A stretch of 24,842 nucleotides of DNA from a virus. The stretch spans positions 1 to 24,842 of IMG/VR virus record IMGVR_UViG_3300031510_000518. One strand, given 5' to 3'. Both the position numbers and the translations under genes were made by a program. Shown here one piece after another: positions 16,427 to 22,552 of this stretch (position 1 is the stretch's first letter; the number at the start of each line of letters is the position of its first letter). The notes beneath the pieces were generated by a model. The model did not search any database, was not told where the DNA came from, and was given only the letters and a program-made list of their open reading frames with translations.

Positions 16427-16455
16427 AGTATACTATGTATCTAGGATATTGTCAA
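16427..16455 (-). promoter_or_regulatory. Sigma70-type promoter for the coiled-coil gene
   Basis: On the - strand TTGACA (16450-16455) and TATACT (16427-16432) are 17 bases apart, 11 of 12 bases. The -35 box lies inside the cyclase 3' end. The leader to the ATG at 16401 is about 19 bases. Confidence 0.8.
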
Positions 16456-18283
16456 TAGGTGAATAAATTTTAATAAGTTCCTCTTTACCCTTAACTTTAA
16501 TCTCACCAATATTTTTACTTGGCATAGTATCAGGTAGTTGTTCCATAGTATAACTAGAATAGATTGTTGGATAATCTTTATAATCTCCTCTAGCGGCAGT
16601 TGCTTCTAATCGTGCAGCAAGGTTGACAGAATCACCAATGACTGAATAGTCAAATCTGGTGGTACTACCCATATTGCCTACAATACATGTTCCTGTATTA
16701 ACACCACTACCAATATTAATCTCTGGTAGTCCTTTCTCTTTCCACGCAGCTTTTAGGTTCTCAGTTTCTATTGCACACTCCACAGATGTACGAACCGCTA
16801 ACTCTGCATGGTTCTCACAATCTAATGGTGCGTTCCAGAAAGCCATGATGCAATCGCCCATGTATTTATCAACCGTACCACCATTATTCAATACTATCTT
16901 GGTCATGCGGTCTAGGTAATCATTGATACACTCAACCAATCCTTCTGGGTCATCATTGTTCTTATAGTGTTCTGATATAGGAGTGAATCCAACAATGTCC
17001 ATAAAGAGAAAACTCATCTCTCTGCGTTCACCACCAAGTTTCAGTGCGTCTGGATTCTTCTGTAAAATAGCAACCTGTCGTGGATCAAGGTAATGTTCAA
17101 ATTGTTTCTTAATCTGTTGGCGTAATCTAAATTCTTCCATAAACCGCAGAAATGCAGAAACAGACCAAACTACAAACATTGTCAATACAGGATATGACCA
17201 ATCAATTAAGTAACTGTATTCAGTAAATAAGTATGAACTGCCGTAATAAGTCCCTGCAAGAAATATTGGTAATAGTGTTGCACCAACATACCAACTTAGT
17301 GTTAACACCACTACTGTTAGTATCAATGATAACACTAAAGACACTGAAAGCTCTGCTAAATCAGTCCAGAAGGGTCTTGTGATGTTCCTTCCTGCAATCA
17401 TAGTTGTTACAGAGGCAGCAATCAAATCGTGACTTGGAATTACACCCACTGGGGTTGCAACTGGATTATCTATTCCAGATGCCGTAGGTGAAAGAATAAC
17501 AATCTTTCCTACAAATGAATCATCGTCTGTTAATTTGTTTAGTGCATAGGTTTTTGTTTTCCATTTGAAATCAATCCAAATAGCACCATTGGCATCAGTC
17601 AGTATCTTTTTGTATTTTGGTATGCGTAATGCTTCCACACCACCCTCACCAGTTTTCATCTGATAACTAATATCTCCAGCAGCTGTTCTTAGTATCTCCA
17701 TAGACAGAGATGGATACAGTTGTCCATCTATTTGAATCACCAAAGGCATCCTACGAACCACACCATCATTCTCTGGAGCAATAAGCATCATACCAACACC
17801 TATTGCAGATTTTGAAAATGGTTCTATGGGGCCGACTGCACCACTATAATTGTATATCCATTGTTGCCAAGGCATACCTATCGCGGCAACACCTCTGGGT
17901 ACAGGATTTCCTTTAGTTTGATTTGCTGGGATTTGTCCTATGATGGTTGGAGTTTTTCTCAACATCTCATCAAATTGTGCATCACCACCTAATCTATCTT
18001 TGTCTGCAAACAATATGGGTAATACAACAATTGAAGCACCCTTGCGATATAGACTTTCAATGTCCTTTGCAAGTTTATCTCTTGGCCAAGGCCACTGACC
18101 ATATTCTCTTACCGAAGCATTATCTATTTCTACTGTCACGACATCAGGAGCGATTGTTTCTTGTTGTGTTCTTTGATGTTGGTCTAGTGCTTTCAACCTT
18201 ACCATCTCAAAGAACCAAAGGTCTGAAAAACGAATAACACAAAAGAATAAAATAACAGAAATAGCTATAATCCACTTTTTCAT
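16433..18283 (-). CDS. CHASE2-domain class III adenylate cyclase
   Basis: This is a membrane sensor that should make cAMP from ATP. The 616 residues have an N-terminal membrane segment (3-22), a periplasmic CHASE2 domain (about 25-310), three membrane helices (about 311-332, 335-352 and 362-380), a short linker and a class III cyclase domain (about 420-605). The cyclase shows both metal aspartates (Asp429 in FLFMDIVGFT, Asp477 in KYMGD), the adenine-selecting Lys473, Ser547 where adenylate cyclases carry Asp or Thr/Ser, and the transition-state Asn554 and Arg558 in GDSVNLAARLE. All key residues are present. The ATG follows the curlin-like stop after one base with AAGGA before it. In bacteria, CHASE2 cyclases are often beside FecR-domain proteins, as here. 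The ligand is unknown. Confidence 0.9.
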   Translation of the reverse strand: MKKWIIAISVILFFCVIRFSDLWFFEMVRLKALDQHQRTQQETIAPDVVTVEIDNASVREYGQWPWPRDKLAKDIESLYRKGASIVVLPILFADKDRLGGDAQFDEMLRKTPTIIGQIPANQTKGNPVPRGVAAIGMPWQQWIYNYSGAVGPIEPFSKSAIGVGMMLIAPENDGVVRRMPLVIQIDGQLYPSLSMEILRTAAGDISYQMKTGEGGVEALRIPKYKKILTDANGAIWIDFKWKTKTYALNKLTDDDSFVGKIVILSPTASGIDNPVATPVGVIPSHDLIAASVTTMIAGRNITRPFWTDLAELSVSLVLSLILTVVVLTLSWYVGATLLPIFLAGTYYGSSYLFTEYSYLIDWSYPVLTMFVVWSVSAFLRFMEEFRLRQQIKKQFEHYLDPRQVAILQKNPDALKLGGERREMSFLFMDIVGFTPISEHYKNNDDPEGLVECINDYLDRMTKIVLNNGGTVDKYMGDCIMAFWNAPLDCENHAELAVRTSVECAIETENLKAAWKEKGLPEINIGSGVNTGTCIVGNMGSTTRFDYSVIGDSVNLAARLEATAARGDYKDYPTIYSSYTMEQLPDTMPSKNIGEIKVKGKEELIKIYSPIDNILDT

Positions 18284-18284
18284 T

Positions 18285-19076
18285 TTAATTTCCTTGTGTC
18301 AAGGATACACCACAACCGCCAGATGATTGACAGTTCTGTGTTAGAGAGTATGATTGATTTGTACCACCTTGTTGAACCAAATTCAAATTAGTAGGATAAC
18401 TGCCGGTTAAATCTACAGTAGCAGTATGTGTTCCACTGTCTTTTTGAACAACAGATTGTGAACCACCATCAGTCCTTACAGTCATATATAAGGTTTTGTT
18501 ACCATTTCCGTTTTGTTTAACAAACATATTATTATTTTCTCCACCGTATGTGTATAGTCGAATAGAATGGTCTGCATTACCTGATCCTGTTTGTTGTCCT
18601 ATCTTGATATTATTTCCACCAGAATGTAGGTCTAGGTTAGTTGTGTGACCACCATACTCTGATGTAGTTCCAGAACAAGTTGTATCAGAGCTACTAGTAA
18701 AGGTTGCGCCCTGACAGACATGAACATTATTATTATTGCTTTTTATATGAAATCCAACTCTGTTTGAATCAGAACCATTGGTGTTGTTCTGTTCAATTTT
18801 TATATTGTTATTTACTCCGTCCAAGTCACCACCCCAAGCTCGACCAGAACCCCAGTAGGAAATCCAACTGACTGTATTGTTGTTTCCTTCTTGGTCAATA
18901 TCAAGTGTGTTGTCGTCATGGGCCATTGTTAAATTGACAGCGTTGTTCTGGCCATCTTGACTGACATTTATTGTTGTATCATCACTGGTAGTAATTTGTT
19001 CTATGAATACACTGTTTCCAGCATAAACAATACTACTCAGACTGATAGATAGTAATAGTGTTATCAGTTTCATCAT
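18285..19076 (-). CDS. Curlin-repeat secreted protein B (Cys-containing)
   Basis: The 263-residue protein has a signal peptide (MMKLITLLLSISLSSIVYA, cleavage near residue 19) and repeated curlin-like motifs of the form I-x-Q-x-G-x-x-N: SQDGQNNAVNL, IDQEGNNNTV, IGQQTGSGNAD, VKQNGNGNKTL, and a C-terminal VQQGGTNQSYSLTQN. It is rich in Asn, Gly, Gln and Ser, as in CsgA/CsgB. Such repeats fold into beta-helical amyloid after export by CsgG. It has four cysteines (two in the CQGATFTSSSDTTC segment and two in NCQSSGGC), which is unusual for curlins and could form disulfides. It overlaps the FecR-like gene by 44 bases and precedes the cyclase by one base. Structural fibre subunit is most likely; adhesin is possible. 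Confidence 0.82.
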   Translation of the reverse strand: MMKLITLLLSISLSSIVYAGNSVFIEQITTSDDTTINVSQDGQNNAVNLTMAHDDNTLDIDQEGNNNTVSWISYWGSGRAWGGDLDGVNNNIKIEQNNTNGSDSNRVGFHIKSNNNNVHVCQGATFTSSSDTTCSGTTSEYGGHTTNLDLHSGGNNIKIGQQTGSGNADHSIRLYTYGGENNNMFVKQNGNGNKTLYMTVRTDGGSQSVVQKDSGTHTATVDLTGSYPTNLNLVQQGGTNQSYSLTQNCQSSGGCGVSLTQGN

Positions 19077-20106
19077 CGGATGTTATCTCTGGTACAGGTA
19101 TTCCCTGTTGTGTTAAATTAATTCTATATCCCCAATCTGCATTTAATCTTAAATGAATATTACCATTTCCCACTTGACGAATTATCTCAAGTCGCGAACC
19201 ATCACGAATCGTATTAACTTGAGTTGATTTATTGAAACCGCTTGTCCTACCATCTACCAGTTCTCTCTGAGCGGTTAGTGCAATTAATTGGTCTAGCACA
19301 TTCATTAATAAATCAACATCTAAAGGATTAATGTCTAGTTCAGTAAATTCCAATTTATCTTCGTCTAATTGGTTTTTGTCTAACTCTCTAAATTCTAAAA
19401 AATCTATGTCTAATAAGTTTATTGTAATTTTAGAACTTTTAATTATTTTTAAAAGTTTTTCTTTGGGTGGTTTAATAATTAACAAATTATTAATTTGGTC
19501 TAAAGTTAAATCAAGTATAACTGGCTTTGAGGGATTAGATTCTCCATTTATAACTAATGTAGATTCAAATGCTTGGGTTAGAAAAACCTGTCCTGCATCA
19601 CTTTCTACTGATATCTTACCCACTGTTCCATCTGCATTGGGAAGTAGAATAATGAGAGACTTTCCAACCTCATCAACAGTCATACTAAAAGCAGTTCCAA
19701 GAACACCTATTCGTGCAGTTGGAGTGCGAATATCAACATTCTGAGAATTTAGTTTTGCAATATTACCACTTGCATATCTAACTGTTCCCAGTGCAACATT
19801 CATTACAAGTTTAGACCCTGTTTTAGAATTTGGGTCATACACAAAATCATCTATTACTAATGAGCTATGTGGACTTATTGCCACATTTGTATCATCAATA
19901 AATTTTATTCCAACATTACCATTTCCTGTACGGACATTATCTTTGTATTCAATGGCAGAGTTTTCTTCTAAAACAAGTTTATTCTCTGCCCTTTCTACCG
20001 AAGCATTGCCTTTTTGTTTTACTACATTACCAATAGTTTCCGATAAAACAATATTGTTAACCGAAATCAATAGTGTAAAACTAATCGTCCATAGTAACCG
20101 TAACAT
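19033..20106 (-). CDS. FecR-domain protein with curlin-like C-terminal tail
   Basis: The 357-residue protein has an N-terminal hydrophobic signal (about residues 2-22), then a FecR domain: GNVVKQKGNASVER, NVRTGNGNVGIKFIDDTNVAI, KLVMNVALGTVRYASG and TPTARIGVLGTAF. Next is a repeat-like Leu/Asp/Glu-rich stretch (about 215-275), and at the end (RQVGNGNIHLRLNADWG, INLTQQG) two curlin-like repeats. Bacterial FecR domains bind surface or sugar components and regulate in the periplasm, often near CHASE2 proteins. The tail suggests it could join the amyloid or anchor it. The ATG used has AGGACACA before it. It overlaps curlin A by 26 bases and curlin B by 44. Confidence 0.82.
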   Translation of the reverse strand: MLRLLWTISFTLLISVNNIVLSETIGNVVKQKGNASVERAENKLVLEENSAIEYKDNVRTGNGNVGIKFIDDTNVAISPHSSLVIDDFVYDPNSKTGSKLVMNVALGTVRYASGNIAKLNSQNVDIRTPTARIGVLGTAFSMTVDEVGKSLIILLPNADGTVGKISVESDAGQVFLTQAFESTLVINGESNPSKPVILDLTLDQINNLLIIKPPKEKLLKIIKSSKITINLLDIDFLEFRELDKNQLDEDKLEFTELDINPLDVDLLMNVLDQLIALTAQRELVDGRTSGFNKSTQVNTIRDGSRLEIIRQVGNGNIHLRLNADWGYRINLTQQGIPVPEITSDDETDNTITIYQSE

Positions 20107-20764
20107 TGTGTCCTGCCCCAACAGTTGTCATCTGAACAGTACCATCATAAGCACCATCCTGTGTAATACTGAACTGACCAGATGCTCCTGTATGATGCAA
20201 GGTTGTATCTTGATCTGCTGCTCCAGTGTGTGTAGAAGTGACCGTATTAGAGTTACCTATTAACGTAATACTTGTTACTTTCTTATCACTACCCGCTAGT
20301 GATGCGGTACTGTTTTCATTGATGGTGACGGTATTGCTATCACCTTGAGCAACCAAATCAATATCTGCATCATCAGTTGAAGCCGAACTACCTACATTAA
20401 CAGTAGTTGTGTTTGAACTACCTGTAAGCGTTTGAATAATACTGTTGTCAGCAGACGCTGAGTTTGCACCAACCGATACAGTAGATGCATTACTATTACC
20501 AGCTTGTCTAAGAGTAAACTGTTGAGTTGCACCAACTACTGATGCTGCAATTGTGTTACTATTACCAATCTGGTCAATGTCTAGTGTTTGGTTATCACCT
20601 GTTAAAGTGACCACCGTTCCAGAAACACCAAACTTGTTGGTTTGTCCGTCTTGATTAATATTTGCAGTAAGGCTTGCACCTGACTGTGTAATGTATACAT
20701 CGCTCGCATAACCCACACTCATCATAACAAAGTAAGCGAGAATTGTAAGTATGCTATTTTTCAT
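20081..20764 (-). CDS. Curlin-repeat secreted protein A
   Basis: The 227-residue protein has a signal peptide (to about residue 20, VGYA-S) and a Thr/Ser/Asn/Ala-rich repetitive body. Curlin-like units include ITQSGASL, INQDGQTNK, IDQIGNSNTI, LRQAGNSNAS and later GSSNTTTVNV, AQGDSNTVTI, LIGNSNTVTS and ITQDGAYD. The GNSNT-type unit repeats about every 20-25 residues, as curlins do. It has no cysteine, unlike curlin B. It follows csgG after 10 bases with a strong GGAGAG site, so it should be made in large amounts. It is a candidate substrate of the CsgG-type pore. CsgA (major) or CsgB (nucleator) cannot be told apart by sequence. Confidence 0.85.
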   Translation of the reverse strand: MKNSILTILAYFVMMSVGYASDVYITQSGASLTANINQDGQTNKFGVSGTVVTLTGDNQTLDIDQIGNSNTIAASVVGATQQFTLRQAGNSNASTVSVGANSASADNSIIQTLTGSSNTTTVNVGSSASTDDADIDLVAQGDSNTVTINENSTASLAGSDKKVTSITLIGNSNTVTSTHTGAADQDTTLHHTGASGQFSITQDGAYDGTVQMTTVGAGHNVTVTMDD

Positions 20765-20774
20765 TTTATCTCTC

Positions 20775-21551
20775 CTATTTGAGTTTCCATAATGCGTTTT
20801 CTATTCCTCTTTCAATCAATTGGTTTACTGCGTGTTCTATTGCTTTACGAACCGCATAAGTTGTCGATTCATTCTCAGTAGTTCCAGCTTCAATTTCGAT
20901 TAATTCAGTACCCATATCTAAAAACTTAAATACATTCATACCAACTTTAGTACTTAATATAGTCTTTTGTGAACTTACCGCAAGTAATACCTCACCAGTT
21001 TGTACAGATATTAATCGTAATGAAACCGATACCATATCTCTACGATATTGGTCACGAATACCTATACCTAAATATCTCGAACCAACACCACCTGTTTCTA
21101 TATTGGTATCGTAACCAATGATACCACCACTTATAAGAACACCAGCAAACAATAAAGGTCTAACTTTTTCTGACTTATCTCCGTCATAAGTTGCTCTTGT
21201 GTTTCTTATGATTTGTCGTTCCTTTAAAAGATAGTCTAAATCCATCCTTTCAACAACAGTAAACCATTCACCATTACCCGCAGTTTTAAGTGCTTGTACT
21301 AATAATGTTCCTGATCCCTGTGTGACTGCTGTGCTTAATGAGGCAAGGTTGTCACTGGGCTTTCTTTGACCTGTTTGGTCATTAAACTGGTAAACAGCAA
21401 TCTCAACCTTCCTTTCGGGGGGTCGATAATTTTTTAACTTGTTCGTCATTGGTGTAGATGTGGCTGTTTCCATCACTTCGTATGTTGTACAACCACCTAA
21501 ACTAAAAAGTAAAATCACCAACAGGAACTGTAATAACTGTTTCACTTCCAT
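20775..21551 (-). CDS. csgG: CsgG-type curli secretion lipoprotein
   Basis: CsgG forms a nine-subunit outer-membrane pore that exports curlins. This 258-residue protein has a lipoprotein signal ending in LGGC (Cys21) and family motifs in order: IAVYQFNDQTGQRKP (51-65), STAVTQ (73-78), ERMDLDYLLKERQIIR (101-116), SGGIIGYDTNIETGGVGSRYLGIG (141-164) and SLRLISVQTGEVL (177-189). It is close to the E. coli length (277 with signal). By eye, the E. coli constriction residues Tyr51, Asn55 and Phe56 align to Ser/Asp, Ser and Leu, so the aromatic ring seems lost. The ATG used has GGAT 6 bases upstream; the frame starts two codons earlier. It overlaps csgF by 50 bases. Confidence 0.92.
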   Translation of the reverse strand: MEVKQLLQFLLVILLFSLGGCTTYEVMETATSTPMTNKLKNYRPPERKVEIAVYQFNDQTGQRKPSDNLASLSTAVTQGSGTLLVQALKTAGNGEWFTVVERMDLDYLLKERQIIRNTRATYDGDKSEKVRPLLFAGVLISGGIIGYDTNIETGGVGSRYLGIGIRDQYRRDMVSVSLRLISVQTGEVLLAVSSQKTILSTKVGMNVFKFLDMGTELIEIEAGTTENESTTYAVRKAIEHAVNQLIERGIENALWKLK

Positions 21552-21948
21552 TTGCATCCAATATTGTTAATGCTACATTGTCTGTATCTTTAATATAGCT
21601 GATTGTAGTACCCTCAAATGTGACTGTTCCATTCTGATTGGAATTTTCTCCAAACATACTATCCACAAGTTGTTTCGACAGTTGAGCGTAAATTCTTGAT
21701 TCTACATTCTTTATAAACTTTGACTGATTTGTATTTGCAAGATTTCTCTCAAGTTCTCTAGCAGCTGCTGCTTTCTTTTCTTTGTTTGCTTTCACACGAG
21801 AATATTCTTGATTCTCGATAGTAAGAACATGGGAACTATATCCCACTCCACTGAAGGCAGGAGAAACCCACTGGTGAGTCAGGTCAGTAGAATTAGCGTT
21901 CATACTAAAAAATACTATTAATATAGTTATTAGACTATGAATTTTCAT
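21502..21948 (-). CDS. csgF: CsgF-like curli assembly protein
   Basis: CsgF sits in the CsgG pore on the outer face and helps nucleation of curli at the surface. The 148-residue protein has a signal peptide (about 1-20), then the pore-inserting region DLTHQWVSPAFSG (CsgF of E. coli has the comparable N-P-x-F-G-G segment), an Ala/Lys-rich helix (about 53-75), and a C-terminal beta domain: ESRIYAQLSKQLVDSMFGE, GTVTFEGTTISYI and ALTILDANGSETVITVPVGDF. The E. coli protein is 138 residues. Its start coincides with the stop of the upstream membrane protein (TAATG), and its 3' end overlaps csgG by 50 bases. CsgE, the periplasmic adaptor, is not seen in the window. Confidence 0.87.
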   Translation of the reverse strand: MKIHSLITILIVFFSMNANSTDLTHQWVSPAFSGVGYSSHVLTIENQEYSRVKANKEKKAAAARELERNLANTNQSKFIKNVESRIYAQLSKQLVDSMFGENSNQNGTVTFEGTTISYIKDTDNVALTILDANGSETVITVPVGDFTF

Positions 21949-22259
21949 TAGCCCTTCTTCCCCCTCTTTCCTTCTTTGTGTAATTGTTCGGTTTCAAGTT
22001 TTTCTTTAATTTCGTCTTGTAGTTTGTCTTTTTCTCTGTATTCCAAAACAACATTTACCTTTTGTTGCAATCGTATCATATCATTATCTAACATACGATT
22101 TTGGTCTATACATTTTATGAGAGCCATGTGCATTGCATCTAACTCTGGTTGAATGTTATTACTAATAAATGCCCATATGTAATATATGAAATATCCCATA
22201 CCGACAGCCATAACAACTGGAAACCCAAATTCAGCAATTAGTGTTCCTATGTCTTGCAT
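21948..22259 (-). CDS. Small membrane protein, paralogue 2
   Basis: The gene encodes 103 residues. The N-terminus IGTLIAEFGFPVVMAVGMGYFIYYIWAF (the membrane segment is about 9-30) resembles the upstream gene product, suggesting a duplicated pair. The rest is a long charged helix with a basic C-terminus (KEGKRGKKG). Holin, antiholin or curli-channel helper are all possible; none is proven. The ATG overlaps the upstream stop by one base and its own stop overlaps the csgF start by one base, so it is part of the same operon. Similar short proteins occur in other marine phages. Confidence 0.72.
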   Translation of the reverse strand: MQDIGTLIAEFGFPVVMAVGMGYFIYYIWAFISNNIQPELDAMHMALIKCIDQNRMLDNDMIRLQQKVNVVLEYREKDKLQDEIKEKLETEQLHKEGKRGKKG

Positions 22260-22552
22260 TAATCTCGCCTCACATCAAGCTTACCATCTTCTTTGAAGTT
22301 TTCAGCACGAGCAATACGATTAATGTCGGGAGTCACTCCTAAAGCAGAACTAACTAATAAATCAATTTTTATCAACTCATTACATCCCACTCTCGCACGA
22401 TCTTCGAGCATTTTACAAAACATAGTCAGAGTTTTTATTTGGTCAATTATACCTTCAAGTATTTGTTTTAATACCATGAATATAAAAAATCCCATTAATA
22501 TTGCTACCGCAATTGGAACTCCGACTTCAGCAATTAGAGTAAATACATCCAT
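22259..22552 (-). CDS. Small membrane protein, paralogue 1
   Basis: The gene encodes 97 residues. The N-terminus VFTLIAEVGVPIAVAILMGFFIFMVLKQI holds one membrane segment (about 8-28) and aligns with its neighbour at LIAE, at VP/FP and at MG-F/Y-F-I. The C-terminal part is polar, with two cysteines, and does not align with the neighbour. The ATG follows a perfect T4-type late promoter and has GAGG about 10 bases before it, so it is the first gene of the curli-like operon. Function unknown; a membrane partner of the secretion system or a holin-like protein are candidates. Confidence 0.72.
   Translation of the reverse strand: MDVFTLIAEVGVPIAVAILMGFFIFMVLKQILEGIIDQIKTLTMFCKMLEDRARVGCNELIKIDLLVSSALGVTPDINRIARAENFKEDGKLDVRRD

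Follow-up and report, generated by a model that had tools for sequence, protein, structure and literature searches.

Curli operons that also encode a FecR protein and a cyclase have been published for Pelagibacter phages, where they form a type VIII secretion system (T8SS) module (Wittmers et al. 2022, PMC9599517). In the parts of that paper available to us, FecR is treated as an iron-type regulator, no curlin-like tail is mentioned, and Pelagibacter itself is described as having no curli genes. A second relevant setting is bacterial: FecR beside CHASE2 signalling proteins is a recurrent pair, as in the BiofilmReg operon (PMC5192318). Here we analyse the FecR gene of a 24,842-base virus record (IMG/VR IMGVR_UViG_3300031510_000518, positions 1 to 24,842; hereafter, the window). 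The window is from a marine phage, with a gene content that looks T4-like by eye, including a single-stranded DNA-binding protein and a ribonucleotide reductase. Its genes for CsgF, CsgG, a curlin (curlin 1), FecR, a further curlin (curlin 2) and a cyclase follow the same order as the T8SS modules of HTVC008M (gp014-gp019) and Melnitz (gp99-gp104). The FecR proteins of these two cultured phages are 42-45% identical to the window FecR, and that of HTVC008M is annotated as hypothetical. We found that the window FecR ends in a conserved tail that resembles curlin in sequence.

An initial annotation of this DNA had proposed that the gene encodes a FecR domain followed by a Leu/Asp/Glu-rich linker and a tail containing RQVGNGNIHLRL and INLTQQG. 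Each of these parts was recovered. The FecR domain exceeds the Pfam cut-off (PF04773, 29.8 bits against 24), as it does in all 36 family members examined, and both tail sequences are present in the translation downstream of the linker. The parts of the protein are as follows.

19033-20106, minus strand: FecR-domain protein with a curlin-like tail, 357 residues, ATG at 20106 and stop codon at 19033-19035 (coordinates include the stop); from the translation, PF04773, and phrog_37870 over residues 6-356.
20041-20106, minus strand: N-terminal signal peptide, residues 1-22, identified by inspection; the hydrophobic N terminus is kept in relatives.
19537-20037, minus strand: FecR-type beta domain, about residues 24-190 (Pfam 56-149); from Pfam and from Foldseek matches to PupR 6ovk and to 5ix9.
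19258-19536, minus strand: Leu/Asp/Glu-rich linker, about residues 191-283, of low confidence in the predicted model; from the translation, the alignment and that model.
19036-19257, minus strand: conserved C-terminal tail domain of 74 residues (284-357), curlin-like in sequence; from alignment, profile, motif and repeat tests.
19108-19128, minus strand: curlin-like strand YRINLTQ, residues 327-333, followed by Q-G-x-x, with Q333 invariant; from the alignment.
19042-19062, minus strand: terminal curlin half repeat NTITIYQ, residues 349-355; from the motif definition in PMC10192328.

The linker (window 19258-19536) also contains 15-residue tandem repeats of the form LDxDxLxFxELDxNx. By Foldseek, the FecR domain resembles both the signalling domain of PupR (6ovk) and an anchoring domain (5ix9), the latter with 32% identity over 62 residues in the structural match and E 0.0011 in the sequence match. 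The classical FecR/PupR layout, in which a cytoplasmic N-terminal sigma-binding region precedes a transmembrane helix, was not found: the hydrophobic segment lies at residues 1-22, and there is no N-terminal cytoplasmic region.

The curlin motif, N-$-psi-$-psi-$-Q-X-G-X-X, recurs with a period of about 23 residues and ends in a full or half repeat (PMC10192328). The FecR tail ends in NTITIYQ-SE, a canonical curlin half repeat that the initial annotation had not pointed out, with NTITIYQ following YRINLTQQG by 22 residues. A strict N-x-psi-x-psi-x-Q at the very C terminus was present in 36 of 44 non-redundant phage FecRs, in 1 of 81 bacterial FecRs and in 1 of 3676 other open reading frames; because the FecRs are related, the first of these counts represents one conserved feature rather than 36 events. 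The spacing from Q to Q in the tails is mostly 21-23 residues, and a search over all offsets from 8 to 45 detected an internal repeat of 22 residues (p 0.005).

The initial annotation had likened the tail to the repeat unit of the two neighbouring curlins, and profile comparison agrees, as did repeat detection. A profile of the tail aligned to a late repeat of the curlin 2 profile with a score of 30.7 (E 1e-4), against a mean of 9.6 and a maximum of 16.2 for 150 column shuffles and 13.7 for the reversed tail. The curlin 1 profile was a poorer match than that of curlin 2; left untrimmed, the tail profile nonetheless aligned end to end with the C-terminal 33 residues of curlin 1 (E 0.019). With a position matrix built from bacterial curlins only, and thus independent of the phages, the best site fell within the last 40 residues in 36 of 42 FecRs, most clearly in those of loci L055 and L056. 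A hidden Markov model of curlin 2 weakly reached 24 phage FecRs and no bacterial FecR, with a best whole-protein E-value of 0.009; these matches are partly to the signal peptide, but those listed end in the tail. Taken together, the sequence tests support the description of the tail as curlin-like. We would tentatively go further and read it as a short, diverged curlin-like module, with strands about 11 residues apart and an open half repeat at its end.

We assessed conservation among 79 relatives from a scan of viral contigs and in an alignment of 36 members. No viral FecR relative with a complete 3' end lacks the tail, at identities down to 39%; this includes relatives in which curlin 2 is missing and the genes do not overlap. 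In the alignment Q333 is invariant and R310 and I353 are nearly so, with 23 residues from R310 to Q333 and 22 from Q333 to Q355. Mean pairwise identity is no higher in the tail (0.31) than in the linker (0.36), so it is the pattern that is conserved rather than the residues at large. csgG lies upstream of FecR in all viral loci not cut off on that side, and a cyclase gene lies downstream in most of those long enough to show one. In about 75 bacterial FecR loci we found neither csgFG nor the tail, and 21 of these have a cyclase nearby. Their C-terminal parts differ widely, and the C-terminal module therefore looks exchangeable within the family. Conversely, no FecR was present within about 9 kb in five alphaproteobacterial csgFG loci. 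Among the loci examined, the tail accompanies viral csg operons, virus and operon being confounded.

Phage-type csg operons were also found binned into bacterial genomes: L085, L161-L164, L176-L179 (one metagenome-assembled genome (MAG), Rhodobacteraceae Water_Bin34, with four operons), and L081 and L082 (Flavobacteriaceae MAGs). Such operons would give a false picture in surveys of curli in bacteria.

The genes around FecR are transcribed from the minus strand in the order two small proteins, CsgF, CsgG, curlin 1, FecR, curlin 2 and CHASE2-cyclase. FecR thus lies between the curlins and upstream of the cyclase gene, to which it is linked with curlin 2 in between, in keeping with the initial annotation, which noted that FecR next to CHASE2 cyclases is known in bacteria.

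21948-22552, minus strand: two small paralogous proteins upstream of csgF, of 97 and 103 residues, with an N-terminal hydrophobic segment; both phrog_18771.
21502-21948, minus strand: CsgF; PF10614, E 4.2e-18.
20775-21557, minus strand: CsgG, outer-membrane curli pore lipoprotein; PF03783, E 1.7e-57.
20081-20764, minus strand: curlin 1, 227 residues, overlapping the FecR start by 26 nucleotides; from hhalign with curlin 2 and an HTVC008M counterpart annotated as CsgB-like.
18285-19076, minus strand: curlin 2, 263 residues, whose first 44 nucleotides overlap the FecR end; weak Pfam curlin match, clear in the HTVC008M counterpart.
16433-18283, minus strand: CHASE2-adenylate/guanylate cyclase, 616 residues; PF05226, E 1.5e-40, and PF00211, E 3.7e-17.

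The two curlins, which the initial annotation had rightly taken as curlin-like, are related to each other (hhalign 99.7%). Within the window only curlin 2 has a Pfam curlin match, and a weak one (E 0.011); the match of its HTVC008M counterpart is clear (E 5e-8). Curlin 2 (window 18285-19076) ends in a Cys-loop (NCQSSGGCGVSLTQ) that is kept in several relatives. The two small proteins occupy the position upstream of csgF at which a histidine kinase is reported for the pelagiphage module (PMC9599517). Pfam identified no kinase domain in either protein (21948-22552), and that label may therefore not apply to them.

In some loci the second curlin has a further domain before its repeats. HTVC008M gp018 (L181:6070-7392), annotated as hypothetical, carries PA14 N-terminal to curlin repeats (PA14 E 2.7e-6, Curlin_rpt E 5.2e-8), as does L065:7558-8871 (PA14 E 8e-9) and, more weakly, L069:9086-10513. 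The PA14-curlin protein is likely an adhesin-bearing fibre subunit, and its occurrence in the same operons shows that curlin repeats serve these phages as a module. In a further set of second curlins (L042:1119-2597, L057:3588-4922, L059:9016-10509 and L071:9010-10440) the repeats are preceded by another long domain, which has a weak ThuA match in L059 only.

The domain order of FecR, the conservation and curlin-like sequence of its tail, and its linkage to csgFG in viral loci are direct observations, from which a mechanism can be proposed. FecR would be exported by the Sec pathway. The CsgG-CsgF channel is given as about 13-15 angstrom wide in PMC9004378, so the folded FecR domain should not pass it and would remain periplasmic. 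The tail would then pair with curlin subunits, whether it stays in the periplasm or exits via the pore, and so act as a curlin-reading anchor. Curlin binding, or tension, could switch the FecR domain to another state; this domain may contact the CHASE2 domain, on the periplasmic side, of the cyclase whose gene is the second after FecR, and thereby change how much cyclic nucleotide the infected cell makes. FecR domains are known from signalling of the PupR type, and FecR recurs beside CHASE2 proteins in bacteria. Since the operon encodes a CHASE2-cyclase, we favour a FecR that sits in the periplasm, with its tail in contact with curlin and its FecR domain in contact with the cyclase. Such a link from fibre to sensor, also envisaged in the initial annotation, is in our view the likeliest mechanism, although we put it at somewhat less than an even chance; export, retention, curlin binding, FecR-CHASE2 contact and signalling are inferred. 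The broader claim, that a virus-encoded protein forms a physical link between an amyloid outside the cell and a second-messenger enzyme, with the curlin module reading fibre assembly or export and the FecR domain relaying it to the cyclase so that the phage monitors its own curli production through cyclic nucleotide signals, seems unlikely in its full form.

Several results weigh against a curlin-reading tail. Pfam Curlin_rpt (PF07012) matched none of 36 FecR tails even at an E-value of 10. From an alignment of 42 tails and no other part of the protein, AlphaFold2 gave a confident beta domain (predicted local distance difference test score (pLDDT) 93.1, predicted template modelling score (pTM) 0.80) in which several turns are short and several strands are joined by two-residue turns. 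Among the matches listed from Foldseek (in PDB and BFVD) and VIA-align, its closest solved folds are antiparallel beta-meander sheets resembling fatty-acid-binding proteins (Z at most 3.4), and none is a solenoid or a curli structure. Strand pairing was judged from the secondary structure and these fold matches, and because the turns are short and the nearest folds antiparallel, we claim no solenoid; the predicted model does not support the beta-helical unit anticipated in the initial annotation. A partial Mantel analysis showed that tail distances track curlin 1 distances beyond those of FecR and CsgG (partial r 0.47). The value for the linker is almost as high (0.39), so this covariation is not specific to the tail. 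Finally, cultures of Melnitz showed no clumping, according to PMC9004378.

The confident model, its turns and nearest folds and the silent Pfam model together make up the case for our strongest rival, in which the tail of this FecR family is a small antiparallel beta domain of an ordinary kind, whose motifs are amphipathic strands that resemble curlin by convergence and do not pair with it. One BFVD match that stands out, an independently predicted phage FecR with the same fold (query template modelling score (TMq) 0.70), also fits this explanation. We regard it as rather unlikely. A sequence search of solved structures with the tail returned no convincing match. A further explanation retains curlin binding and dispenses with signalling: FecR would be a CsgB-like nucleator or tether, its tail seeding curlin while its FecR domain keeps the fibre attached to the cell, like the folded anchor of large adhesins. 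The likeness of the FecR domain to the anchoring domain 5ix9, the open edge that a half-repeat end would offer (by the rule in PMC10192328), and the inclusion of several loci without curlin 2 among those with the most curlin-like tails all suit a tether. However, a pure tether would not need the cyclase found downstream in most sufficiently long loci, and the operon's CsgB counterpart already appears to be curlin 1, which leaves this explanation distinctly unlikely.

We consider it improbable that the tail is instead a CsgG-directed plug, mimicking the curlin N-terminal secretion signal and standing in for the missing CsgE as a gate of the pore. The secretion signal of curlins is N-terminal rather than C-terminal, and the conserved pattern spans the whole 60-residue tail rather than its end alone, although the IYQ-like end does resemble the start of mature curlins and CsgE is absent from these operons (PMC9599517). 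Lastly, the overlap between the FecR end and the curlin 2 start recurs in many relatives, and the terminal motif might have been forced by the curlin 2 signal peptide read in another frame. We rejected this artefact as very improbable: 8 of 9 complete FecRs without an overlapping downstream start keep the strict motif, so the overlap does not account for its presence.

The operon with FecR and a cyclase was thus already known, and the curlin-like tail of its FecR has, as far as we found, not been described before. A literature text search, whose reach left out most subscription papers, returned no description of a FecR-curlin or PA14-curlin fusion, and the phage papers on these operons make no mention of such a tail in the parts available to us. 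The conserved tail offers a concrete, testable reason for FecR to be in the operon, namely that it may bind the fibre subunit. Should it do so, this would also hint at what bacterial FecR-CHASE2 pairs sense: whatever their exchangeable C-terminal module touches. The cell-surface anchoring domain of an antifreeze adhesin (PDB 5ix9), which anchors a type I secreted adhesin at its N terminus and belongs to no curli system, is like the FecR domain locally in fold and sequence. In the bacterial FecR-CHASE2 pair, as in the window, a CHASE2 signalling protein has its gene near that of a FecR-domain protein, which is exported there and probably so in the phage; in the bacterial pair, in contrast, FecR carries LysM, the partner is a histidine kinase, and neither curli genes nor a curlin-like tail are described (PMC5192318). 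The minor curlin and nucleator CsgB, like the FecR tail, has C-terminal curlin-type repeats that diverge from the consensus (PMC10192328), but whereas CsgB consists of repeats throughout, the phage protein bears them as a short tail on a FecR domain.
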